Source of the DNA: Bacteroidota bacterium
GTDB taxonomy: Bacteria; Bacteroidota; Bacteroidia; Bacteroidales; P3
Assembly: GCA_017860275.1 (NCBI GenBank)
Contig: JAFNAQ010000005.1
Span: 62,001-126,000, forward strand
Length of the DNA stretch: 64,000 nucleotides
Direction: 5' to 3'
The notes below the pieces were generated by a model. It saw only the letters and a program-made list of their open reading frames with translations. It ran no database searches and was not told where the DNA came from. The translations under genes and the position numbers were made by a program. Positions 14,450 to 62,562 of the stretch are shown here, in pieces. The stretch's first letter is position 1. The number at the start of each line of letters is the position of its first letter.

Positions 14450-15712
14450 ATGCAACTAAATATAAATACTTTTAATTCCTTAAAATACCGAGATTTCAGA
14501 CTATATTTCATTGGGCAATGTATTTCATTAATTGGTACATGGATGCAACAAATAGCCATGAGTTGGCTTCTCTATAACCTTACCGGTTCTATAGCGATGT
14601 TAGGTGCCATATTTTTCATATCTCAAGCACCAATCTTACTAATAACGCCCTTTTCCTCAGCCTTTATTGACAAGGTAAACAAAAGAAAAATACTAATAAT
14701 AACGCAAGGAGCATCGATGCTTCATGCAATAATACTCACAATACTTACCCTCACAAACACCATAGAAGTATGGCAATTAGTCCTCTTAAGTTTCTTTCTC
14801 GGAATAATAAACGCAATCGATATGCCAACAAGGCAAGCATACTACACCTCATTAGTTCCAAAAGAAAACCTAACAAATGCCGTTGCTCTTAATTCCGCAA
14901 TAATCAACGGAGCAAGACTTATTGGACCTGCAATAGGTGGAGTAATCGTTGGGCTCGTTGGAGAAGGTGGATGTTTTCTCGTCAATTCAATAAGCTATAT
15001 ATTCGTAATCATAGCTTTATTTATGATAAAGTCAGAGCAAATTATAATCAACCAAAACAAGACAAGAGTTGTAGAGGATATTAAAGAGGGTTATAAATAC
15101 ATGAAAAAACATGTACCAATAAAAGTATTAATATTCACGACTCTAATTTTTTGCTTTCTAATTTTTCCAATAACAACCTTTATCCCTGCATTCACAAAAG
15201 ACGTTCTTGGAGGAAATAGCGAAAAGTTAGGATTAATTCTTTCCGTAGTTGGCGTTGGTTCATTTATCTCTGCAATGTTTCTTGCCTCAAGAAAGGGACT
15301 ACTTGGGCTCGAAAAGCTACAACTTGCAGCAATCTTCGTCTCATCAATAATCTCAATATTTTATTTCTTCGTAACATCGCTATGGATAACCTTAATTCTC
15401 TCGGCAATCTTAGGTTTTAGCATGGTTTGCACAATTGCCACAACAAACACTATGCTTCAAGCCCTAACCGACCTCAACATGAAAGGAAGAATTATGGGAT
15501 ATTATACGATGTGTTTCTTAGGTGGCTCTGCTCTTGGTAGTTTGTTGTTAGGCTGGTTAAGCAAAGTATTCACCCTACCCTACACAATGGCGGCAAGTGG
15601 AATAATTTGCGTAATAGGAATAATCATATACCTTCCATACCTCGAAAGAGTAACACAACAAACCAAAGACAAATATATAGAAAATGGGATAATCCCCGAA
15701 ATCCCAGTATAA
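14450..15712 (+). CDS. MFS transporter (EntS-like MFS_3 family)
   Basis: The 420-residue protein has about 12 membrane segments and opens with the family's pattern LKYRDFRLYFIGQCISLIGTW, with MQQIAMSWLLYNLTGS in segment 1. The loop DKVNKRKI after segment 2 and MPTRQAYYTSLVPKENL before segment 5 are typical of the EntS/MFS_3 group, which includes siderophore and drug exporters. The substrate cannot be read from sequence. The gene stands alone, convergent with the YidE-type gene across a 511-base gap. Confidence 0.88.
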   Translation: MQLNINTFNSLKYRDFRLYFIGQCISLIGTWMQQIAMSWLLYNLTGSIAMLGAIFFISQAPILLITPFSSAFIDKVNKRKILIITQGASMLHAIILTILTLTNTIEVWQLVLLSFFLGIINAIDMPTRQAYYTSLVPKENLTNAVALNSAIINGARLIGPAIGGVIVGLVGEGGCFLVNSISYIFVIIALFMIKSEQIIINQNKTRVVEDIKEGYKYMKKHVPIKVLIFTTLIFCFLIFPITTFIPAFTKDVLGGNSEKLGLILSVVGVGSFISAMFLASRKGLLGLEKLQLAAIFVSSIISIFYFFVTSLWITLILSAILGFSMVCTIATTNTMLQALTDLNMKGRIMGYYTMCFLGGSALGSLLLGWLSKVFTLPYTMAASGIICVIGIIIYLPYLERVTQQTKDKYIENGIIPEIPV

Positions 15713-15757: not shown

Positions 15758-16213
15758 TGTTAATATTAAGAAATGCAAATTAGGTATTTTAGCACAAAAA
15801 CCTTGTTTTATCACTCTAGAATCTTATTCTACGACAGCGGAATCTTATTCTATTTTTCTAGAATCAAATTCTATTTCACTAGAACAAGGAGTTATTTCTC
15901 TAAATACCTTATTTCTACAAAATTAAACCTCGTTTCTGTAAATTTTTATCAGACATAAATTCATAAATATGAGGTTTCTTTGAAAAAAGAGGAAATAAAT
16001 CTATAAAAAATGGTCAAATGAAGATATTTATTATAAATAATTAACGAATCTTTTTCCCCAAGCCGCCCATTGTCTTCAAATTTTCAACCCACAAGACCCC
16101 ATCTCATTACTAACATTTAACATCAAAACTTGCAAAATGTTAGAAAAATACCCAAAAACCAACGTTTTAGTTAAATCAAAACCAACAACCAAAAAATATA
16201 CGCCGTAACTTTG
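15758..16213 (-). repeat. Dispersed 21-bp-array element, copy 1
   Basis: Read on the minus strand this stretch aligns with the plus strand of 60308-60876. Landmarks in order are a CAAAGTTA box (16213-16206), TTTAACTAAAA (16175-16165), GGGTATTTTTC (16153-16143), a 31-base block (16056-16026, one mismatch to the other copy), a 21-bp-period palindromic array (about 15915-15796) and an 18-base end block (15775-15758, one mismatch). The gap between the last strong array unit and the end block is 41 bases in both copies. No coding capacity is conserved between copies. I know no named family. Confidence 0.75.
15796..15915. repeat. Tandem array of 21-bp palindromic units (copy 1)
   Basis: Units start every 21 bases at 15796, 15817, 15838, 15859, 15880 and 15901. 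The best are TAGAAT-CTT-ATTCTA at 15817 and TAGAAT-CAA-ATTCTA at 15859: six-base inverted arms around three bases, then a six-base linker. The unit at 15838 starts CGGAAT, and those at 15796, 15880 and 15901 are degenerate. Weaker units continue at the same spacing to about 15970, for example AAAC-GAG-GTTT read on the minus strand. Confidence 0.85.
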
Positions 16214-16223
16214 AAACTTTGTT

Positions 16224-17879
16224 TTACATACAAATTATCACTAAAATTTGTGCTGTTAGAATTCTTAGGAACATGGTTAGTGGGTAGACTGTTGCGTATG
16301 CTACCGATGGTGCTTCATTTGTCGCTACTGAGTTTGCGAAGGCAAGTGCAGGGGGATCGGTCATTGAGCCTGAAAGTAAACCTAAGATTGTATAGTAATC
16401 CATTTTATATCGCAGTCTTGCAAAAACACCAACTAAGAATAATGGAATTACCGTTATCATTAAACCATATATTGCCCAAATATAACCTCCATCCATAATT
16501 GTGCTAACAAATTTCTCTCCTGCTCCCAACCCTATTGCTGCTAAGAACATAGAAATACCTATCTCTCTAATCATCATATTGGCACTCGTTGTGGTAAAGG
16601 TAATTAGTTTATAGTATGGTCCAAAGCGTCCAATTAGAATTGCAACGATAAGTGGTCCTCCCGCTAAACCTAGCTTAACTGGTGATGGCAATCCTGGAAA
16701 GGCAATTGGTATAGAACCTAAGATTATACCTAGGGTTATACCTAAGAAGATTGGTATTAGATTTGGATGGTCAAGACGTTTCATTGAGTTGCCTAATAAA
16801 TCGGCTACCTTTTTAATATCTCCTTCTTTTCCAACTACCGATACTCTGTCTCCAATTAATAGCTGAAGGTCTTGTGTTGCTATAAGTTCAATACCTGCTC
16901 TTGTAATACGTGTAATGTTTACACCATATAGTGAACGTATCTTTAGAGCGCCTATCTTCTTACCATTTAATGATGGCTTTGTTACTACTATTCTCCTTGA
17001 TAATAGTTTTTCTTCTCCACTCTCCCACTCTGCCTCGGTAACATTTGTTGTTTCTCCCAAAAGCATGATTATTGCGTTTGAGTTTGCTTGTTCTATTACT
17101 ACACGAATAATATCACCCTCATTCACAATTGTTTTATCTGTCACTGAGTTTACCTCATCGTTTGATTTCTTAATTCTGGTAACTACCATTGGCTGACCAA
17201 ATAATTCTACTATCTCTCCAATTGATTTTCCAAAGATATTATTCTTTTTTATTACTATTGAGAGAACTTGATTTGTCTCTTTATTTTCTTTGGACAAACT
17301 TGCATCTTTCTCTGGTTTAATCTTTAAAATCCATTTTATTATCATTGGAGTAAATATTATACCTATAACTCCTAATGGATATGCTACTGCGTAACCTAAG
17401 GCTACATTCGGGTCTTCTGCACCTGTTATATCTTTTATCGCTCCTTGTGCTGCACCAAGACCTGGAGTATTTGTAACGGCTCCAGAAAGGACACCGACCA
17501 TTGTTTGGATATTAATTCCTGTTACTATATGAATAATATATGTAACCACACATCCTAAAAGGACAATCATTGCGGCAAGAGAGTTTAATCTCAGTCCTCC
17601 TTTTTTTAGGGATGCGAAGAACCCTGGTCCTACTTGCAACCCTACTGAGTAGACAAAAAGTATTAGACCAAATTCCTTTACGAAGTGAAGAAGTTCCTTT
17701 TCTAACTCAAATCCAAAATGACTTATTGAAATACCTACAAAGAGTATCCAAGTGATACCGAGTGATATGTTTGCAATTTTTAATTTCCCAAGTTGAATTC
17801 CCAGTGTAATTGTGATGGCAAGCAACATAATAGAATGCCCAATTCCACCTCCATTAAATAATTCGATAAACCAATTCAT
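16224..17879 (-). CDS. YidE/AspT-family transporter with two RCK_C domains
   Basis: The 551-residue inner-membrane protein has the duplicated layout of the YidE/YbjL/AspT family. About five membrane segments come first, with GVLSGAVTNTPGLGAAQ in the first half. Two soluble TrkA-C-like domains follow at about residues 200-290 and 295-375 (GKSIGEIVELFGQP, LLIGDRVSVVGKEGD). A second membrane half contains the matching GLLSGSMTDPPALAF. AspT exchanges aspartate and alanine, but YidE-like members are uncharacterised, so the substrate is unknown. The gene stands alone on the minus strand. Confidence 0.88.
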   Translation of the reverse strand: MNWFIELFNGGGIGHSIMLLAITITLGIQLGKLKIANISLGITWILFVGISISHFGFELEKELLHFVKEFGLILFVYSVGLQVGPGFFASLKKGGLRLNSLAAMIVLLGCVVTYIIHIVTGINIQTMVGVLSGAVTNTPGLGAAQGAIKDITGAEDPNVALGYAVAYPLGVIGIIFTPMIIKWILKIKPEKDASLSKENKETNQVLSIVIKKNNIFGKSIGEIVELFGQPMVVTRIKKSNDEVNSVTDKTIVNEGDIIRVVIEQANSNAIIMLLGETTNVTEAEWESGEEKLLSRRIVVTKPSLNGKKIGALKIRSLYGVNITRITRAGIELIATQDLQLLIGDRVSVVGKEGDIKKVADLLGNSMKRLDHPNLIPIFLGITLGIILGSIPIAFPGLPSPVKLGLAGGPLIVAILIGRFGPYYKLITFTTTSANMMIREIGISMFLAAIGLGAGEKFVSTIMDGGYIWAIYGLMITVIPLFLVGVFARLRYKMDYYTILGLLSGSMTDPPALAFANSVATNEAPSVAYATVYPLTMFLRILTAQILVIICM

Positions 17880-19166: not shown

Positions 19167-19251
19167 GGAAAGATGGCAGAGCGGTTGAATGCGGCGGTCT
19201 TGAAAACCGTTGACTGTAACAGGTCCGGGGGTTCGAATCCCTCTCTTTCCG
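19167..19251 (+). tRNA. tRNA-Ser (anticodon TGA)
   Basis: An 85-base class II tRNA. The acceptor arms GGAAAGA and TCTTTCC pair, the D-arm is GGCAGAGCGGTTGAAT, and the anticodon loop CTTGAAA inside CGGT/ACCG gives anticodon TGA (UCN codons). A variable arm and the T-loop GGTTCGAATCC follow. The 3' CCA is not encoded. A 19-base-spaced promoter and a strong terminator flank it, so it is a single-gene unit. Confidence 0.95.
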
Positions 19252-35417: not shown

Positions 35418-35448
35418 TTTGCCAGTAAACAAAATTATTGTACTTTTG
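35418..35448 (+). promoter_or_regulatory. Promoter of the SRP RNA gene
   Basis: TTTG at 35418-35421, exactly 19 bases, then TACTTTTG at 35441-35448, five bases before the RNA's 5' arm. Confidence 0.85.
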
Positions 35449-35452
35449 CATT

Positions 35453-35549
35453 GGGTAAGTCTTATACGATCAGCTCCCTTTGAATCTCCCCAGGGCAGGA
35501 ATGCAGCAAGGTAATTAGGTTGTAGCGGTGCGATATAAGTAGCTTACCC
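35453..35549 (+). ncRNA. ffs: Small-type signal recognition particle RNA (4.5S)
   Basis: The closing arms GGGTAAG (35453-35459) and CTTACCC (35543-35549) pair. The apical part holds the Ffh-binding consensus CAGGAATGCAGCAAGG (35497-35512) opposite TAGCGGTGCG. The length of about 97 bases fits the small bacterial SRP RNA that, with Ffh, targets nascent membrane proteins. A TTTTTT run follows at once and makes the closing stem part of the terminator. Exact ends are inferred from pairing. Confidence 0.93.
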
Positions 35550-35563
35550 ATTTTTTATTTGGT

Positions 35564-40282: not shown

Positions 40283-43200
40283 TTACTCAACAATTAGTTT
40301 CTTTGTCTGAATATCTTTACCACTAATTATACAAATATTATAAATCCCCTTTGCTAATCCTTCAACATTTATTTCTAGTTGACTTTTTCCTCCCTCTAGT
40401 TTATACATATCAACTATTTTTCCATACATATCAATAATTTGCACTTCTGTCATTTCTACTCCATTTTCAATAGATAGAATAGCCTTTTTATTTGTAGGAT
40501 TTGGATAAAGTTTAACAGAGATATTATTATCAATTTCGTTTTCTAAGCCTACAAAACTTTTACACATTATTTTACTAAATTCAGATACACAATCTCCACT
40601 TATTGCTTTAATTTTATAGCAATATGCTGTAGAGCTAATAACATTATAATCAAGATAAATAGATTGATCAACAACTGTAACTAAAATATTATTTCTATAT
40701 ATTTCATATTTAGATGCATCTCCTTGCCATATTATCTCTAAATAATTATGCTGAGGATATACCTTTAGATTACTAGGTATTGAAGGAGTAGAATTAAGAG
40801 TTAGATTAAGGATAACAATACTATCACACCCATTTATAGTTTGTAAGTTTTGTATATATGAGCCTGCTGTATCTGCATTAAAATTAAATCCATATTTATT
40901 ATACACTTGACCTTGACATATAGTGTCATAAATTGTTTTTGAAAATATAGTATTAACTATTAAATTAAGGGTAATAATACTATCGCAACCATTTATTGTT
41001 TGTAGGTTTTGAGAATATACTCCAGAAGTATCTGCATTTAAATTAAATCCATAGTTATTATATTGTTGCCCTTTGCAAATTGTATCATAAATAATTGTTG
41101 AATATCTAGAATTTACATTCAGAATTAAAGTAATACTATCACAACCTGTAAATGTATATATCTTATAAATATTAATACCAGATGTGTCTGCAATAAAATT
41201 AAAGCCATATTTATTATACAAAAGTCCTTGACATATCGTATCATAAAAAGTTGTAGAATATACGGTGTTTAGTAATAAGTTAAGTATGATAATACTATCG
41301 CAACCGCTCATGGATAGTAGGTTTTGTATATAAATCCCCGATGTATCTGCAATAAAATTAAATCCATATTTATTATACATTTGCCCTTTGCATATTGTAT
41401 CAAAAATTTCTATCGAGTATATTGGAGTGACAATTAAACTTAATGATAATACACTATCACAGCCAGTTGTTTTTTTAAGACTTTGAATATATACTCCTAT
41501 CGTATCTGCAATAAAATTAAATCCAAATTTATTATATTTTTGCCCTTTACAAATAGTATCATAAATTATTGTTGAATATACAGTATTGACGGTAAGTGTT
41601 AGTTTAACACTATCACAACCATATACTAAGTTATAAACACCAGCAGTATCTATATTAGCACCATATTGGGTATACTGTTGTCCTTGACAAATTGAGGTTG
41701 TAATATTTTGATAAGATTTTACAGGGAATTTATTACTAAAACTACTCCAATATGGAGCAGTAGAATATAAATTCATTGAAGCACAAGGAACATATATCTT
41801 AAAACCTGCAGGTACTTGATAAAAAATATATTGCGACGCTATGGTTGGTGGATTATTTGCAAGAAAATAAATTGACAATAATCCTGTGCAATTATAAAAA
41901 CATGACTCACCTATATAAGTAACTGAATTGGGAATAATAACTTTATTCAGACTTGTACAAGAATAAAAAGCCTCCTTGCTGATTGAATCAACTGAGTTTG
42001 GTATTGTAACAGAAGTTAAGCTAGTGCAATATCCAAAAGCACCTAATGGGACAACATTAAGAGAATTTGAAATTGATATAGAGTTAAGTCCTGTACAATC
42101 AATAAATGCATAATCACCTAAAGATGTAACAGAGTTTGGAATTATTAATGAAGATATTTTTTCACACCCTCGAAATGCATTAGCGCCTATAGAAACAAGG
42201 GTGTTAGGCAATGTAATTGCTTTAATTTTATAACAAAGATAAAATGCATAATCTCCAATAGATATTAAAGAATTTGACATTGTCACCATAGATAAACTGT
42301 CGCAGTGAGCGAAAGCTGACTTCCCTATTGATTTTACAGAGTTTGGAATGAATATGGACGGCAATTCTGCGCACCAAGTAAAAGCATATTCACCTATTGA
42401 AGTAACTGAATCAGGAATTGAAATGGATTTCAAATTATGGCAATAATAAAAGGCAGTATTTCCAATCGAAGTTACTGTCTTCGGAATAACTATAGAAGTT
42501 AATTGAGTGCAATCTTTAAAAACACTATTGCCTATTTTAGTAATTGAATTTGGCAAACTTATTGATTGTAATCCATTACAACCTTCAAAAGCAGAATCTC
42601 CTATTGATAAGGTAGAATTTGTAATTGTTACAGAAGTTAAATAATTGGAGCAGAAAAATGCTTTTGGAGCAATTGAAATTACGTTGTTAGATACTGAATA
42701 ACTTCCCTTTTTTCCGGGAGGGTAACACACTAATGTATCTTGATTCTTCGAAAATACAATCCCATTACTTGAAGAATACTTCGCATTATTCGAGTCAACT
42801 ACAATTGACATTAGACTATTACATGTTTGAAACCAATCAGGTTTGAATTTTGGGATTGAACTTCCTATTGATACAGTTGCTAAACTTGTACAAATTGCAA
42901 ACGCATGTTCACCTAATGATAGTACGGAATTTGGGATAGCAATTGAAGTAAGTTTATCGCACCAATAAAAAGCATTATCCCCTATAGTTGTAACAGAATT
43001 TGGTATTGTTATTGATGTAAATCCCTTACATTTTGAAAATGCAGAATTTCCTATAGAAGTAACCGAATTTGGGATTGTTATTGAAGTTAATCCAGTACAA
43101 TTTTCGAAAGCATTAGCTCCAATATATGTAACTGAATTTGGGATTGATATTGAGGTTAATCCAGAGCAATTAAAGAAAGAAGAACCAGCGATTCCTATAA

Positions 43201-43415: not shown

Positions 43416-45974
43416 TTATTTTTCTATAATAAATTTCTTAAACAAATTCAACTTCTTTCCAATTATTTTTAAGGTATAGACTCCATTCTCAAATTTATCA
43501 GAATTTATTCCCAAATTATTTCCCGTACTTATATTAATATATCTAGCCACCTCTTTTCCCATAATATCGTATATAAATACATCTACATTTTGCGAAATTC
43601 CAGTAAATTCAACATTAATCTTATCTTTCGCAGGATTTGGATAGAGTAATATTGATTTGTCATAATACATAATATTTTCCAAACCGACATAATCGCCACA
43701 TACAGTATCACTAAAATTTGATTCACACTCCCCAATCAATGCCTTAACTCTATAACAATATGTTGATGAATTTTCGACATTGTTATCAAGGTAAATTGGT
43801 TGTTCAACAGTAGAAATTAAAGAGTCGTTTCTATATAATTCATATTGCTGCCCCTCTCCCTGCCATGTAATTTCTAAATAATTTTGCATATGCACAACCA
43901 GTAAATCATACGGTTCAGAAGGTAAGGGATTAACAGTCAAATAAAGATATATATTACTATCACAATCTGCTATCGTTTGCAAGTTTTGAATATACAAACC
44001 AGTTGAATCTGAGTAAAAATTAAATCCATAATTATTATACAATTGACCTTGACATATGTTGTCATAATGTATTATTGAATATGTTGGATTTATTACCAAA
44101 TTAAGCGAAACAGTACTATCACAACCTTTTATTGTTTGCAAATTTTTAATGTACAATCCTGTTGTATCTGCAATAAAATTAAATCCATAATTACTGTACA
44201 ATTGACCTTTACATATTGTATCATTTATTTCTGTCGAATAAGCTTGATTTACAACTAAATTAACTTCAACAATACTATCACAACCTGATAAAGAATACAA
44301 GCTCTCACTATACTTCCCTGATGAATCGGCACTGAAATAAAATCCGAATTTATCATAAAGTTGACCTTTGCATATTGTATCGAAAATGGATGTCAAGAAA
44401 GTTGGGTTAACAAATAGATTTATTTTATAAATACTATCGCAACCGCTAATTGTTTGAAGGTAATTTTTATATAACCCGGAAGTATCAGCAATAAAATTCA
44501 ATCCATAATTACTGTACAATTGACCTTTGCATATTGTATCATGAATCGATATTGAATAAATTGGGTTTACATATAAATTTAATGATATTATACTATCACA
44601 TCCTGTTGTCTTTTGCAAGTTTTGCGTATATAATCCTGATGTGTCTGCTATAAAATTAAATCCATAGTTACTATACAATTGTCCTCTGCATATTGTATCG
44701 TAAAGTACCGAAGAGTATTCTGGATTGACAGCCAGTGTAAGAAAAACGCTATCGCAACCATTTACAAATTTATAAAGTCCCGAGGAATCGTAATCAATCC
44801 CATTAACAGTGTATTTATCTCCTTGACAAATTGTTGCAGAAATATTTTGGTAGGTTTCAATAAATGGAAGAAAATTGGTTATTGAACTCCAATATTGAGT
44901 AGACATATATCGACTCATTGAAGAACAAGGAACAAAAATAGGAATATTTTTAGAAACACTATCAAATGTTGTTGATACAATAGTTGGAGGAGGATATACA
45001 GACTTAAATATTAATGATTTTAAGTTATTACATGCATAAAAAACCTTTCCTCCTATAAACGTAACAGAATCAGGAATTGTTATTGACTCCAAACTATCGC
45101 AATAAGAAAATGCAAAATCCCCTATAGAAATTATTGAATTTGGCAACGATATAGAACTAATATTTCCACAACGATAAAATGCATAATTCCCTATTTTATT
45201 AACAGAATTTGGGATTGAATAATTCCCTGACTTGCCTTCAGGACAGGTAATTATTGTATCAAAATTTTTCGAAAATAACACACCATTATTTGAAGAATAT
45301 CTTATATTATTCGAATCAACATTTATTGATACTAAATTTTCACAATATCCAAAAGGGGGAAATTGGCTTATTGAATTAATTGAACTTGGAATAAAAATTG
45401 ATGTCAAGGCTGTACAACCAATAAAAGCATTAGCTCCTATTGATGTAACTGAGTTTGGAATAGTAACTGAAGTTAAATTAATACACATATAAAATGCCAT
45501 GTCTACTATTGTGGTTACAGAATTGGGAATAGAGTAACTCCCTGATATTCCCTGAGGGCAAATTAATATAGTATCTCGGCTTTTAGAAAATAATACCCCA
45601 TTATTTGATGAATATCTAGTATTACTTGAGTCAACCTGAATTGAAGTCAAATTAGAGCAGCCTACTAAAGCATAATTAGCTATTAATGTTACAAAACGCG
45701 GAATAGATAAAGAAGATAAATTATTACAAAACTGAAAAGCATTGCCTATTGATGTAACATAATATGTATTTAAGCCATATTCAACCGAATCTGGGATAAC
45801 AATATTCCCAGAATAAGGAGTTGTGTAGTTTTTTTTTGTAACCTCAACAGTATTTGTTGATTTAATGTTATAGTAAATCGTATCACCATTGCTTACATTA
45901 AAAAAACTATATGCAAAGAGTGTATTTATGGATAATAGAATCAAACCTAAGATAGATAGTATTTGTTTTTTCAT
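43416..45974 (-). CDS. BspA-type leucine-rich-repeat T9SS surface protein, paralog 1
   Basis: The 852-residue protein has the same order as its downstream paralog but a shorter repeat part: signal peptide (about 1-21), roughly ten LRR_5 repeats, six cysteine-paired repeats of about 53 residues (DTICKGQLYSNYGFNF ... GCDS), an FN3-like segment and the T9SS domain (LYPNPAKDK to KKFIIEK). The signal peptides differ slightly (MKKQILSILG against MKKQFFLLVG). A minus-strand TAATTTTG box at 46101-46094 is a possible promoter for both. Confidence 0.88.
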   Translation of the reverse strand: MKKQILSILGLILLSINTLFAYSFFNVSNGDTIYYNIKSTNTVEVTKKNYTTPYSGNIVIPDSVEYGLNTYYVTSIGNAFQFCNNLSSLSIPRFVTLIANYALVGCSNLTSIQVDSSNTRYSSNNGVLFSKSRDTILICPQGISGSYSIPNSVTTIVDMAFYMCINLTSVTIPNSVTSIGANAFIGCTALTSIFIPSSINSISQFPPFGYCENLVSINVDSNNIRYSSNNGVLFSKNFDTIITCPEGKSGNYSIPNSVNKIGNYAFYRCGNISSISLPNSIISIGDFAFSYCDSLESITIPDSVTFIGGKVFYACNNLKSLIFKSVYPPPTIVSTTFDSVSKNIPIFVPCSSMSRYMSTQYWSSITNFLPFIETYQNISATICQGDKYTVNGIDYDSSGLYKFVNGCDSVFLTLAVNPEYSSVLYDTICRGQLYSNYGFNFIADTSGLYTQNLQKTTGCDSIISLNLYVNPIYSISIHDTICKGQLYSNYGLNFIADTSGLYKNYLQTISGCDSIYKINLFVNPTFLTSIFDTICKGQLYDKFGFYFSADSSGKYSESLYSLSGCDSIVEVNLVVNQAYSTEINDTICKGQLYSNYGFNFIADTTGLYIKNLQTIKGCDSTVSLNLVINPTYSIIHYDNICQGQLYNNYGFNFYSDSTGLYIQNLQTIADCDSNIYLYLTVNPLPSEPYDLLVVHMQNYLEITWQGEGQQYELYRNDSLISTVEQPIYLDNNVENSSTYCYRVKALIGECESNFSDTVCGDYVGLENIMYYDKSILLYPNPAKDKINVEFTGISQNVDVFIYDIMGKEVARYINISTGNNLGINSDKFENGVYTLKIIGKKLNLFKKFIIEK

Positions 45975-46210: not shown

Positions 46211-46420
46211 ATTATTTGAGATATAAATTTATTTTTCTTAGAGGAAATTCAATGGAAAGGGCGTTTATTTTTTATTTAAAGGCTATATAAAATATTATTT
46301 GCTTGATTGCGGAAATTCTAATGCACATTTGAAACTTTTTTATTTGATATAAATCTCCTGAATCCTTATTTTATTCTCTGAAATGCTTGATTTGATCTTT
46401 TTTTATAAGGATTTATTCTT

Positions 46421-46489
46421 GCTAGGGTAGCTACCCTAGGTGTGTTATGGTAGCTACCGTAGCAGTGCTAGGGTACCTACCATAATTTA
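46421..46489. repeat. Tandem array of 23-bp palindromic units
   Basis: Three units start at 46421, 46444 and 46467, with the cores GGTAGCTACC, GGTAGCTACC and GGTACCTACC spaced exactly 23 bases. The first unit contains the perfect 18-base palindrome CTAGGGTAGCTACCCTAG. AT-rich degenerate units may precede it to about 46350. Confidence 0.85.
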
Positions 46490-59541: not shown

Positions 59542-60264
59542 TTACATATCAAGAGTGTTAATATCAATAAGCTTCATAATTTTAGGACGAAGCTTATCAT
59601 GGACAAGTTCTAAATAGTTCTTTCTATCTATAATAACAGCATCTAATAATTTCATAAAATTATCTCCAAGATAGCCTGCTAGTTCAGAATATTTATTCAA
59701 AATTTCATCTTTGCTATGTTGTTCAAGTATATAGTTAATAATTAAACTAGGTTCCTCTTTAATTTTGCAATATTCTCGCTGCATTTCAGAAACATTATTA
59801 TTAATTTTATTGAACAAAACCGAAGCTTTTTGCAAATCATCACATATGTTTTCTGCAAAAATACTTTTTGCAATTAGATTATGTCTAAATAGCATTTTAT
59901 TTTTATCGTTAATATAAACAATATACCTAACAGAAATTAAATCATTACAAACAAATAAGATATCATCTACCTTCTCCATTTCAATAGAAACATTATTATT
60001 TTTTGGTGCTAATCTTAAATATGTATCTACAAGATCATAATAAACAGCAACCCTTTTATCATATAACTGAATCTTTAAACCGTGTATTTGTATTTTTTCC
60101 TGATTTTTAGCAAACTTATAATTTAGGCAAATAATAAATATTGTAAGAATAATAAAAGCAACTACATTTGCAATTGATGCCCAAAACATCCACCAATCAT
60201 AAGTGCTTGGAAACATTAATTCTTTTACAATTTCATTAAGTATATTAAGTTGATTTGCATCCAT
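59542..60264 (-). CDS. Unknown protein with one N-terminal membrane helix
   Basis: I do not recognise this 240-residue protein. One hydrophobic helix is visible at about residues 28-49 (ASIANVVAFIILTIFIICLN), followed by a mostly helical, charged C-terminal part with coiled-coil-like stretches (DDLQKASVLFNKINNNVSEMQ). No catalytic motif is seen. A TATCTTTG box on the minus strand (60315-60308) lies 43 bases before the ATG and coincides with one end of the repeat element. It stands alone, beside the RAYT gene, so recent acquisition is possible. Confidence 0.65.
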   Translation of the reverse strand: MDANQLNILNEIVKELMFPSTYDWWMFWASIANVVAFIILTIFIICLNYKFAKNQEKIQIHGLKIQLYDKRVAVYYDLVDTYLRLAPKNNNVSIEMEKVDDILFVCNDLISVRYIVYINDKNKMLFRHNLIAKSIFAENICDDLQKASVLFNKINNNVSEMQREYCKIKEEPSLIINYILEQHSKDEILNKYSELAGYLGDNFMKLLDAVIIDRKNYLELVHDKLRPKIMKLIDINTLDM

Positions 60265-60550
60265 ATATTATTTATTTGATTTAGTTATCTATAATATTAA
60301 CTGGATTCAAAGATAGTAAATATTTTTTGAAATTGCATATCACTAAAGAAATATTTTAACTAAAAGGGGTATTTTTCGTGGTTTTTGTAACATTTAGTAG
60401 GTTTTGGGGTTAATTGTTATTAATTTTATTAGGGGTTTAGAATTGAATAATTGAAGAGAGGTTGTGGGCTCATGAAAAAGATTCGTTAATTCTTTATAAT
60501 AAATTTGGGTTTTTTGATAGATATTTTTTGGAATTTTATTTGTTTCAAAA

Positions 60551-60655
60551 AAATCAGGGATTTTAGAAAAAAACTCCTTGATTTTTTCTGAAAAATCAGG
60601 GAGTTTTCGCACAAAATCAAGGAGTTTATAAATAAAATCGGGGATTTTTTGGAGC
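60551..60655. repeat. 21-bp array A: five units with alternating orientation
   Basis: Units at 60551, 60572, 60593, 60614 and 60635. Four read AAATC-(A/G)-(G/A)GGA-TTT-like (for example AAATCAAGGAGTTT); the second, at 60572, reads AACTCCTTGATTT, the inverse, yet keeps the 21-base grid. Copy 1 has no clear equivalent of this array. Confidence 0.8.
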
Positions 60656-60739
60656 TATATCTTATAAAATTTTACTTTTCTCAGAGATAGTTTCAAAGAA
60701 ATGGCTTTAAAATTCAGATAAACAGCCATTTCATGAAAA

Positions 60740-60838
60740 TAACTCCTTATTCTACGAAAATAGAATCTTATTCTAGAAAAATAGAATCAAATTCTATTGT
60801 CGTAGAATCTTATTCCAGAGCACAAAAACACGGATTTT
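60740..60838. repeat. 21-bp array B: units shared with copy 1
   Basis: Units at 60740, 60761, 60782, 60803 and a degenerate one at 60824. The second and third read TAGAAT-CTT-ATTCTA and TAGAAT-CAA-ATTCTA; the linker GAAAAA is identical to copy 1 and TTGTCG differs from CTGTCG by one base. The unit at 60803 ends ATTCCA. Confidence 0.85.
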
Positions 60839-60879
60839 TACTTATAAATGATGATTTTCATTTCTTAATTTTAACAATA

Positions 60880-60936: not shown

Positions 60937-62562
60937 CTATCCCATAAATGGGTAACGGAAGTCCTCTGGTGTTAACAAAGTTTCCTTTACACATCTTGCG
61001 CTAATCCAACGATAAAGATTAAGTTCAGAACCTGCCTTGTCGTTTGTTCCTGATGCTCTTGCACCTCCGAAAGGTTGATTTCCTACAACTGCACCTGTTG
61101 GTTTGTCGTTGATATAGAAATTACCAGCTGCATAACGAAGTTTATCTAATGCTGTTTCAACTGCATAACGCTCGTTAGCAAAGATTGAACCTGTTAGTGC
61201 AAATTCAGAAGTCTTGTCGCAAAGCTCAAGAGTTTCTTCAAACTTATCTCCATCATATAGGTAAATAGTAATTACTGGACCAAAAAGCTCTATCTCCATT
61301 GTTTCATACTTTGGAGTAGTTGTTGTGATAATTGTTGGCTCAATATAATATCCTTTTGATTTATCTGCATTTCCACCAATTGCTATTTCAGCATCTGGAG
61401 ATGTCTTAGCTCTTTCAACATATTTCATGATTGTGTCGAAAGCCTTTTCGTCGATAACTGCATTGAAGAAATTGCTAAGCTCTCTTACGCAACCCTTTTT
61501 CATTTCAGCTACCATTTCTTTGATATATCCTAGAGTTTCTGCCCAAAGTTCTTTTGGCATATAAGCTCTTGATGCTGCAGAACATTTTTGTCCTTGATAT
61601 TCAAAAGCACCTCTTACGATAGCAACCGCTAATTGTTTTGGAGTAGAAGATTTGTGAGCAAAAATAAAGTCCTTACCACCTGTTTCTCCAACAATTTTTG
61701 GATAAGTCTTATAGTTATTTACATTTTCTCCGATAGTCTTCCAAAAAGCATTGAAGGTTGAAGTTGAACCAGTGAAGTGAACGCCACCAAAATCAGGTGA
61801 TGCAAAAACAGTATCTGAAATAACTGATCCAGCACCTGGCACAAAGTTTATTACTCCATCAGGAAGACCAGCTTCTTTATAGATTTGCATTAGATAATAG
61901 TTAGAAAGGATAGCTGTTGTTGCAGGTTTCCAAACGGTAACATTACCCATAATTGCAGGAGCTGTGTTTAGGTTACATGCAATTGCAGTAAAGTTGAATG
62001 GAGAGATTGCATAAACGAAACCTTCAAGTGGACGATACTCCAAACGATTAATTGCAGTATTATCACTCATTGGTTGTTGTGCATATATCTTTGATGCAAA
62101 GTAAGCATTGAAACGTAAGAAGTCAATAGCCTCACATGCTGAGTCAATCTCTGCTTGGAATGGGCTCTTACCTTGACCTAACATTGTTGCTGCATTGATA
62201 AGATAACGATGTTTCTTTGATATTAATTCAGCAGCCTTAAGCATAATTGAACAACGTTCAATCCAATGAAGCTTAGACCATTTTTTATGAGCTTCCATTG
62301 CTGCATCAATAGCCATTTGAACAGTTTCTTTTGTAGCCTTATGATATGTAGCAAGAACGTGTCCGTGTTCTGTTGGCATTACAACCTTACCCATATCTCC
62401 TGTCTTGATTTCTTTTCCACCAATGATTAATGGAATCTCAATGCAAGTATTATATTGTCTATCTAACTCCTTCGATAATGCTTCTCTCTCTGGTGAACCA
62501 GGAGCATATCCTAATATTACTTCATTTTTAGGTCTTTCGAAAAAGAATGTTGTGTTGTTCAT
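60937..62562 (-). CDS. pruA: L-glutamate gamma-semialdehyde dehydrogenase (PruA-like)
   Basis: The 541-residue enzyme is a class 4-type aldehyde dehydrogenase: AISPFNFTAIACNLNTAPAI, VGETGGKDF (catalytic Glu 293) and YQGQKCSAASRAY (nucleophile Cys 327), then ELFGPVITIYLY and NQPFGGARASGTNDKAGS. It oxidises glutamate-5-semialdehyde/P5C to glutamate in proline catabolism. It is a stand-alone P5C dehydrogenase, with no proline dehydrogenase domain. Its promoter overlaps that of the divergent gene. Confidence 0.93.
   Translation of the reverse strand: MNNTTFFFERPKNEVILGYAPGSPEREALSKELDRQYNTCIEIPLIIGGKEIKTGDMGKVVMPTEHGHVLATYHKATKETVQMAIDAAMEAHKKWSKLHWIERCSIMLKAAELISKKHRYLINAATMLGQGKSPFQAEIDSACEAIDFLRFNAYFASKIYAQQPMSDNTAINRLEYRPLEGFVYAISPFNFTAIACNLNTAPAIMGNVTVWKPATTAILSNYYLMQIYKEAGLPDGVINFVPGAGSVISDTVFASPDFGGVHFTGSTSTFNAFWKTIGENVNNYKTYPKIVGETGGKDFIFAHKSSTPKQLAVAIVRGAFEYQGQKCSAASRAYMPKELWAETLGYIKEMVAEMKKGCVRELSNFFNAVIDEKAFDTIMKYVERAKTSPDAEIAIGGNADKSKGYYIEPTIITTTTPKYETMEIELFGPVITIYLYDGDKFEETLELCDKTSEFALTGSIFANERYAVETALDKLRYAAGNFYINDKPTGAVVGNQPFGGARASGTNDKAGSELNLYRWISARCVKETLLTPEDFRYPFMG

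Follow-up and report, generated by a model that had tools for sequence, protein, structure and literature searches.

BOX elements of Streptococcus pneumoniae are interspersed intergenic repeats of 67-637 bp, with 125 copies in the strain studied. They have terminal inverted repeats (TIRs) and target-site duplications, and they are also found in S. mitis, with relatives in S. suis (PMC3049150). Porphyromonas gingivalis carries 19 intergenic copies of the BrickBuilt MITE, which is also reported from P. gulae and is built on a 23-nt direct repeat unit. Portions of both leader and tail are present in 11 of these 19 copies, and the TIR is IS5-like, of the GAGACCTTYGCA / GAGACCTTTGCA type (PMC4596501, Table 2). 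GTAG- and CGTC-tagged REPs are palindromic and lie mostly downstream of genes, sometimes within them (PMC3733652). Phased A-tract DNA has been described in bacterial genomes as genome-wide periodic signals (PMC3940949, PMC4132750, PMC7537859). These statements and the comparisons that follow refer to the parts of the cited papers that were consulted.

The element described here, of which two copies lie in the window (the whole 64,000-nucleotide stretch of DNA that was analysed), resembles BOX in having a left and a right module, a variable count of the middle unit, a narrow host range and predicted folding. Unlike in BOX, the middle unit is a 21-bp near-palindrome drawn from a small word set, the copies change in total length by steps of two helix turns, and the middle can contain other, nested repeats. 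BOX has TIRs and target-site duplications, whereas our element has ends that are only weakly alike and no detected duplication (PMC3049150). The comparison with BOX is one of layout and occurrence. With BrickBuilt the element shares a Bacteroidales host and the arrangement of a leader and a tail around a minisatellite. However, its unit is 21 bp long and near-palindromic rather than a 23-nt direct repeat, and its ends are TTTAAC.../...TTAAC (the alignment columns read TTTAACTAAAA and TTTCTTAAnnTTAAC) rather than an IS5-like TIR. Whereas the leader or tail of BrickBuilt is often missing, 41 copies of the present element have both ends (PMC4596501). There is a link to the REPs in that GTAG-type palindromes are nested in several copies and a CGTC-type palindrome is found in a left-flank cassette, both recognised by eye. 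The element differs from GTAG and CGTC REPs in having no tag at its ends or array units, a length of 396-725 bp and fixed modules (PMC3733652). Like phased A-tract DNA it has A/T tracts every 10-11 bp, but as a discrete dispersed element of quantised length and not as a genome-wide signal (PMC3940949, PMC4132750, PMC7537859).

The BOX/BrickBuilt-like layout in combination with a differing unit, length and spacing therefore makes the element a variant of the interspersed modular repeat. Its 21-bp near-palindromic unit, quantised length and fixed spacing go beyond BOX and BrickBuilt as described in the parts of PMC3049150 and PMC4596501 consulted. An earlier interpretation of the window, made from the letters alone and called here the sequence-only reading, knew of no named family with this design. 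None has emerged since: the element has no Rfam match at the gathering score, and no relevant description of the words themselves or of such repeats was found in open-licence PubMed Central papers.

Copies and anatomy of the element

The sequence-only reading proposed that two stretches of the window, at about 16 kb and 60 kb and in opposite orientations, are diverged copies of one intergenic element. This is confirmed, and the two are part of a larger dispersed family with at least 41 complete copies. The features of the two copies in the window are as follows.

15759..16175, minus strand: copy 1 of the element, 417 bp (396 + 21), ends from the alignment of 41-42 copies
16021..16175, minus strand: left module of copy 1, TTTAACTAAAA ... 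GTTAATTATTTATAATAAAT, ~155 bp, gap-free alignment A1 of 40 copies, anchors at +33, +55 and +131
15796..15894, minus strand: 21-bp array of copy 1, cores CTCCTTGTT, AATTTGATT, AATAAGATT, AATAAGATT, AACAAGGTT, coordinates counted by hand
15759..15775, minus strand: right end block of copy 1, CATTTCTTAATATTAAC, from the end alignment of 35 non-redundant copies
60355..60875, plus strand: copy 2 of the element, 521 bp (396 + 6 x 21 - 1)
60355..60509, plus strand: left module of copy 2, from the left-module alignment
60547..60648, plus strand: middle ('A') array of copy 2, cores ATCAGGGAT, CTCCTTGAT, ATCAGGGAG, ATCAAGGAG, ATCGGGGAT every 21 bp (TRF period 21, 4.9 copies)
60741..60817, plus strand: right ('B') array of copy 2, cores CTCCTTATT, AATCTTATT, AATCAAATT, AATCTTATT every 21 bp, coordinates counted by hand
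60859..60875, plus strand: right end block of copy 2, CATTTCTTAATTTTAAC, from the end alignment

The core matches on which the proposal was founded stood, including a 31-base block (16056-16026 and 60474-60504) and an 18-base end block (15775-15758 and 60859-60876), each with one mismatch as claimed. The outer ranges did not: 16176-16213 and about 60310-60354 are flank in the alignment of copies. On the minus strand, copy 1 runs from window position 16175 (TTTAAC...) to 15759 (...TTAAC). It lies between convergent genes for an MFS transporter (14450-15712, plus strand) and an Asp-Al exchanger permease (16224-17879, minus strand). Copy 2 is flanked by a 240-aa gene with no Pfam match (59542-60264, minus strand) and an aldehyde-dehydrogenase gene (60937-62562, minus strand). 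TRF detected the 21-bp period at 15840-15884 in the array of copy 1 and at 60746-60796 in the B array of copy 2. Aligned locally, the two stretches scored 112.5, compared with a mean of 20.5 (sd 3.4) and a maximum of 34.0 for 300 dinucleotide-shuffled pairs.

The genome containing the window (G000; 2.93 Mb in 111 contigs, 98.9% complete) yielded at least 90 matching pieces with copy 1 as the query, and copy 2 as the query found further places. At least 41 copies of 396-725 bp have both ends. The sequence-only reading had named a lack of further copies as grounds for its refutation, and that outcome did not arise. These counts are lower bounds because only part of the candidates (40 of 124 in the first look) were scored. 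One further locus (L251), which looks like another copy of the L027/L141/L154 type, was left out of the counts. Among the incomplete places, only the left end was found at L030, L143 is without a left end, and L155-L157, L248-L250 and L252 are partial or consist of the array alone. The claim that no gene is shared between copies and that no conserved frame crosses them holds as far as tested, and further copies with the same order of blocks lie mostly between unrelated genes. ORFs overlapping the copies, of up to 155 aa (L144, partly outside the copy) and 109 aa (L006), are not common to different copies, and no transposase gene was seen inside any copy. The family is thus short, non-coding, interspersed and present in many copies (41 complete), as MITEs are. 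It also has a modular A-Bn-C layout in which a left module is followed by a variable number of 21-bp units and a fixed tail.

From left to right, a copy begins with the left end TTTAAC(T)AAAA and the left module of ~155 bp; a middle that varies, the near-palindromic array and finally the tail follow, the ends being TTTAACTAAAA ... TTTCTTAAnnTTAAC. The left module is internally gap-free in 40 of the 42 aligned copies. In most copies the array is preceded by a block near ACAGAAACGAAGTATATTTTCGTGGAAATAAAGATTTTA; the near-palindromic array units have the form TAGAAnnnnnTTCTA, and the tail terminates in TTTCTTAAnnTTAA[C/G]. Both ends are sharp, the per-column information being already close to background a few bases beyond the end blocks, and TTTCTTAA and TTAA in the right end block are invariant or nearly so among 35 non-redundant copies. 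The two ends resemble each other weakly, with few bases in common (TTAAC / GTTAA, by eye). The middle contains a second type of array, with cores such as ATCAGGGAT, CTCCTTGAT and ATCAAGGAG flanked by AAA and TTT. GTAG-type palindromes identified by eye (TAGGGGCGAATAATTATTCGCCC, GAGACGCGATAAATCGCGTCTCTACG) are nested in the middle of some copies, and a scan with short words detected nested REP-type words in 17 of the 41 copies.

Other repeats and RNA genes are present in the window. Another short intergenic palindromic array, a 23-bp tandem repeat with the nearly palindromic unit TGCTAGGGTAGCTACCCTAGCAG, lies between two minus-strand ORFs at 46420-46481. Two 159-bp tandem arrays of about five copies each (40801-41587 and 43955-44699) are located inside long minus-strand ORFs and probably encode repeat domains of large surface proteins. 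Rfam identified a Bacteroidales small SRP RNA at 35446-35553 and a tRNA gene at 19167-19251.

Length, spacing and helical phase

Intervals between B units were exactly 21 bp in 79 cases, the next value being 162 bp (5 cases), and those between A units were exactly 21 bp in 36 cases, the next value being 42 bp (4 cases). The lengths of the complete copies follow the same step, with 396 bp (5 copies), 416-418 bp (6), 435-438 bp (15), 459 bp (3), 478-479 bp (4), 521 bp (2), 542 bp and 584 bp; the other four copies are 469, 693 (twice) and 725 bp long. Thirty-six of the 41 lengths depart from 396 + 21n by no more than 2 bp; an even spread would give about 10. The Rayleigh R at a period of 21 is 0.87, with a p of 4e-14 that treats the copies as independent, which they are not. 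Of the 17 copies that contain REP-type words, 14 are on the 21-bp grid and three (L027, L141 and L154) are off it. The sequence-only reading had noted equal spacing near the right ends of the two window copies, and this spacing is real: measured from where the last array unit begins, the right end is 73 bp away in 28 of the 41 copies and 72 bp away in five. The middle of the tail is nearly random in sequence, though the distance from unit to right end is fixed. The family-wide quantisation in 21 bp, the fixed anchors described next and the occurrence of arrays on their own in related genomes all go beyond that reading.

All 42 copies have the left-module anchors TAAC(A/T)TT at +33 and TTAA at +55 from the left end, and 40 of them have TTAATT at +131. 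The two exceptions at +131 are L147, which has an 11-bp insertion, and L148, which is without the distal part of the module. With these two rows left out, a FastTree tree of the 40 remaining copies gave 917 parsimony substitutions in 150 bp of the left module, with the conserved anchors unshifted. Mean divergence from the consensus was 32.75 of 150 left-module bases per copy. Copies about a fifth off their consensus would be expected to carry small indels too; here the anchor distances are kept and lengths step by two helix turns, and helical phase itself looks like the conserved trait.

As a control we used the promoter-cassette repeat family L194-L203 of the same genome. The control had changed length in four of eight stretches over 147 substitutions, compared with one of 41 left modules (Fisher p 0.0015, rate p 0.0016; the Fisher tests compare net length changes, and the short hits L204-L206, plus L200 in one count, were left out). 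When four short hits were added, the control figure became 4 of 12 stretches (Fisher p 0.007). The indel result depends on the gap penalty. At a penalty of -10 there were 4 gap events per 1400 substitutions in the left modules (2 of 42 copies) and 4 per 148 in the control (4 of 9 stretches). At -8 the left modules had 7 gap events per 1387 substitutions and the control stayed at 4, and at -6 they had 25 per 1332 (9 copies), still fewer per substitution than the control. At -4, however, the left modules had 112 gap events per 1162 substitutions (33 of 42 copies, against the consensus), exceeding the 4 per 148 of the control; with L003 as the reference, the number was 165, and 815 of 861 pairs were gapped. 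Since the conserved anchors stay in place, we read the low-penalty gaps as noise, placed so as to compensate one another in A+T-rich sequence. Taken at face value, they count against rigid spacing.

The units of the B array are drawn from a small vocabulary. Among 152 positions the cores were AATAAGATT (38), AATTTGATT (20), AATCTTATT (17), AATCAAATT (13), CTCCTTATT (13), AACTTGATT (11) and others. The cores read as two half-sites (AAT, AAC, CTC or complements) around a three-base centre, and intermediates between the AAG-centred class and the CAA/TTG-centred class are nearly absent. Adjacent units tend to be reverse complements of each other (18 exact cases in 111 against 10.5 expected, p ~0.01; identity p 0.0008). 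The rigid spacing could be viewed as a by-product of copying or homogenisation, through template switching between complementary units, gene conversion or copying that substitutes bases without slipping, and not of selection. A vocabulary in which seven cores cover 120 of the 152 units, the near absence of intermediates between classes and the pairing of neighbouring units as reverse complements are all consistent with such a process. However, single-base variants are common within a class (AATAAGATT/AATAAGGTT, AATTTGATT/AACTTGATT), the fixed spacing and A/T phasing of the non-palindromic left module and tail are left unexplained, and the small control family in the same genome does change length. 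We consider this explanation improbable. Selection on each copy (a host site), the needs of copying (a mobile element) and the copying process itself are rival reasons for the kept spacing.

The AAA/TTT spectral power at 10.5 bp had a mean of 9.8 over the 41 copies, compared with 1.57 for 440-base stretches of the window, 1.95 for the A+T-richest stretches and 1.8 for dinucleotide shuffles. When the 64-kb window was scanned in sliding 210-base segments, copy 2 ranked third and copy 1 sixth in 10.5-bp signal; four other stretches, mostly in ORFs, outranked copy 1, and two of those outranked copy 2. The phasing is therefore a property of the family and not diagnostic for a single copy. In a wedge model, the predicted ratio of contour to end-to-end length had a median of 1.87, compared with 1.30 for window stretches and 1.39 for shuffles. 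The raised predicted curvature is mainly to the right of the left module, the left module alone being not clearly above background. A/T tracts at 10.5 bp and raised predicted curvature are the marks of helically phased (curved) DNA.

On either strand, the portion to the right of the left module also has a stronger predicted fold than its shuffles (median z -5.2 and -5.0). In the 28 of 41 copies with an opposite-strand gene on the right-hand side, the median distance between the right end and the stop codon of that gene is 25.5 bp. Both observations would be compatible with a transcribed RNA element, whether as 3' UTR hairpins for termination or message protection or as a dispersed non-coding RNA. 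Folding on either strand is nevertheless expected because the array is A+T-rich, symmetric and palindromic. The left module has a folding z near 0 and, by RNAalifold on 40 copies, 0 consensus pairs. In the right part, scanned in 33 of the 41 copies with 8 left out, the 60 column pairs of strongest correlation formed no RNA helix. With the lack of an Rfam match at the gathering score also counting against it, we judge a function as RNA to be very unlikely. Most likely the element works as DNA, through a phased protein-binding array.

Placement and mobility

The complete copies sit between the surrounding long ORFs, with a few neighbouring ORFs reaching 5-18 bases into an end. In co-directional gene pairs, the right end faces the stop codon of the upstream gene in 20 copies and the orientation is reversed in 5 (p 0.004). 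Eight copies are found between convergent and eight between divergent genes, all these counts including doubtful ORFs of 60-80 aa. As a rule the element occupies the DNA between one gene's stop codon and the start region of the next gene.

Two pairs of copies are closely similar. L020 and L021, 478 bp each, are 93% identical with two compensating 4-base gaps, and L025 and L026 are 87% identical, their 437-bp alignment being gap-free with 58 substitutions. The flanks differ within both pairs, save for a 6-base match beside the left end of L020 and L021. Exceptions seen to this pattern are L027 and L141, which are alike over 44 + 36 bp of flank, L002 and L149, which have similar left flanks, and a left-hand promoter cassette common to L005, L009, L018, L147 and L150. 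The short flanks that L027 and L141 share on both sides are what could be expected of a segmental duplication including neighbouring genes, but likeness is absent from most flanks and such a duplication does not explain the family. Either this or chance similarity of A+T-rich sequence is vanishingly improbable, and both are refuted for the family by the alignment score of 112.5 against a shuffle maximum of 34, the 41 complete copies and the mostly unrelated flanks.

The promoter cassette (L194-L203) is itself dispersed, up to ~160 bp long, with a CGTC-type palindrome (CGTCGTGAGGGATTTGCAATCCCTCAC, by eye) and a leftward promoter motif. It ends at the left end of the element in the five copies named above, and elsewhere parts of it occur alone. 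At L198 what follows the cassette is no more than the element's first bases.

The distances of leftward TAnnTTTG motifs from the left end tend towards 47 + 10.5n bp (Rayleigh p 0.005 for 21 motifs, the period having been picked post hoc). L009, L018, L147, L149 and L150, with flanks resembling those of L005 or L002, were dropped from this test. Four exact 47-bp distances are then left (L005, L023, L152 and W60), of which L152 still resembles the dropped flanks, and we treat promoter phasing at 10.5-bp steps as a lead only.

These observations bear on the idea that the copies are chromosomal sites maintained by the host, for regulation or nucleoid architecture, under purifying selection for helical phase, with any mobility old or incidental. 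A parasitic element should decay after landing, so the kept spacing fits a host function as well or better. The anchors are unshifted in nearly all 42 diverged copies, and the sole insertion in a left module, the 11 bp of L147, is about one helix turn. The orientation bias in co-directional gene pairs and the clustering of TAnnTTTG motifs, with several copies at 47 bp, point in the same direction. On the other hand, a search of 10 congeners gave no left module, 8 of the 41 copies lie between convergent genes, and L198 has a left end without the rest. The 47-bp distances are moreover reduced to four once shared flanks are dropped, and their period was chosen post hoc. We regard a host-maintained site as unlikely, though more probable than the other rivals.

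No target-site duplication was clearly above the cross-copy background in the 41 copies for left-hand offsets of -40 to +12, right-hand offsets of -14 to +45 and lengths of 4-10 bp. A search of the genome for the Y1 transposase domain PF01797 found none; RAYT/IS200-type mobilisation was rejected on this ground, despite the nested GTAG-type palindromes. No clean empty orthologous site was obtained in congeners from three regions (window 60 kb, window 16 kb and L025). Gene order was unshared in all three: the near gene was present, without its partner from the far side of the element next to it. For L025, 9 of 10 congeners have the upstream gene, and the 220 bases that follow it are without the element (by eye).

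Downstream of that same gene, congeners carry other palindromic arrays (the L271/L274/L275 set), with ATGTTGGCAACAT every 22 bp in G008 and GATGCACATCTTTC-type arrays in G009 and G003.

The reading we favour, to which we give a probability of about 0.5, is that the element is a BOX/BrickBuilt-like mobile repeat, species-restricted, non-coding and non-autonomous, whose core would be a helically phased protein-binding array. The array would line up sites for a dimeric DNA-binding protein along a single face of the double helix, which would be curved. Spacing may be kept rigid since the resulting protein-DNA complex would be needed for the copying of the element or for its tolerance. For its copying the element would rely on a recombinase provided in trans, whose action leaves behind no recognisable duplication of the target site. 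In favour of this reading are the dispersal, the sharp ends, the mostly unrelated flanks and the similar pairs at different places, together with the 21-bp grid, the anchors that almost never shift, the 10.5-bp A/T phasing and the raised predicted curvature. The in-frame array of L253 (see below), taken as a mobile array, would also support it. Against it stand the lack of a target-site duplication at the tested offsets, the weak likeness of the ends, the lack of an empty orthologous site from the three regions and the absence of PF01797 from the genome. The indel result also counts against it, shifting with the gap penalty until, at -4, left modules exceed the control.

With 41 natural variants in one genome, the family offers a test of DNA geometry as a need of a mobile repeat or of a nucleoid site.

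Arrays in related genomes

A model of the left module (R1) was built from 40 copies, and the best 15 or 7 candidates per genome were scored. Nothing convincing was found outside the element's own genome among 190 genomes of the family and 393 of the order (overlapping sets, each including that genome). The weak matches were two of 17-18 bits in the family and one of 24.7 bits in the order, the latter inside a 551-aa open frame of G213; all three are without the ends of the element. Two exact matches to a short pattern were seen in viral contigs, again without element ends, and copy 1 as the query had no match in phage or plasmid records.

A two-unit array pattern with up to 3 mismatches was matched in 10 of 189 family genomes, representing 4 of 12 genera, and the reversed control pattern had no match in the 189. 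Genomes with arrays include G000, G003, G006, G008, G010, G169 and G188. G002, G005 and G007 are without the two-unit pattern but have arrays with AATAAGGAG cores. The word sets vary from genome to genome: in the listed places of G006, G008, G003 and G010 the prevailing types are AATCAAGTT and AATCAAATT, and in the element's own genome AATAAGATT. In G006, the 18 loci fetched from 24 pattern matches are arrays of 2-4 units between ORFs, and no match of at least 60 bp exists between these 18 loci outside the array region.

Two arrays of G188 are inside ORFs (L253 and L254). L253 is a gene for a DppD/OppD-type ATPase (ABC-ATPase) in which the array is in frame and the frame stays open. Residues 34-91 of the predicted protein match residues 3-60 of the solved relative 8j5q_D, and residues 169-360 match residues 78-270, with 77 residues standing where 8j5q_D has 17. 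The array thus appears, from comparison with 8j5q_D as the sole relative, to be an in-frame insertion, the other reading being a natural loop. In this it would be like the Rickettsia palindromic elements (RPEs), which place a palindromic repeat in frame in protein genes (PMC3733652). RPEs differ from the present element in sequence and layout, and the in-gene form here is the array alone, in another genus of the family. The array of L254 is in a predicted 322-aa protein with a CHU_C type IX secretion domain. A third array within an ORF is L266 of G003, where the 145-aa ORF may be spurious.

L254 lies just downstream of a sigma-factor-like ORF, so labelled from its translation.

A broader proposal, which we hold tentatively and think rather unlikely as a whole, is that the arrays are sites of a DNA-binding system present across the family. 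Its words (half-sites AAT, AAC, CTC and ATC around a three-base centre) would drift together within each species, and in the present genome would have been packaged into a length-quantised, helically phased, self-spreading element. If this were true, the specificity of the protein, the vocabulary of its sites and their architecture would co-evolve, and helix phase rather than sequence would be selected. Arrays with other word sets in related genomes, once in frame in a transporter gene, make a comparison between species possible.

Array-only loci of the genomes searched include L032-L044, L155, L156, L248 and L252, and AATAAGGAGTTA-type words occur in congeners. Several of the array-only loci adjoin short direct repeats such as CCTCCCTCACCTCCCTCAC or AACCTTAACCTACCTTAACCC, which are perhaps the edges of mobile genes. 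L041, L044, L261, L262 and L266 contain other classes of word with a period of ~21 bp (ATCCCTTAT / GTCCGATAT; TTTCTCTGAGATA; TATCAAGGAAAA, by eye), which suggests that the word sets are more numerous than the two studied.
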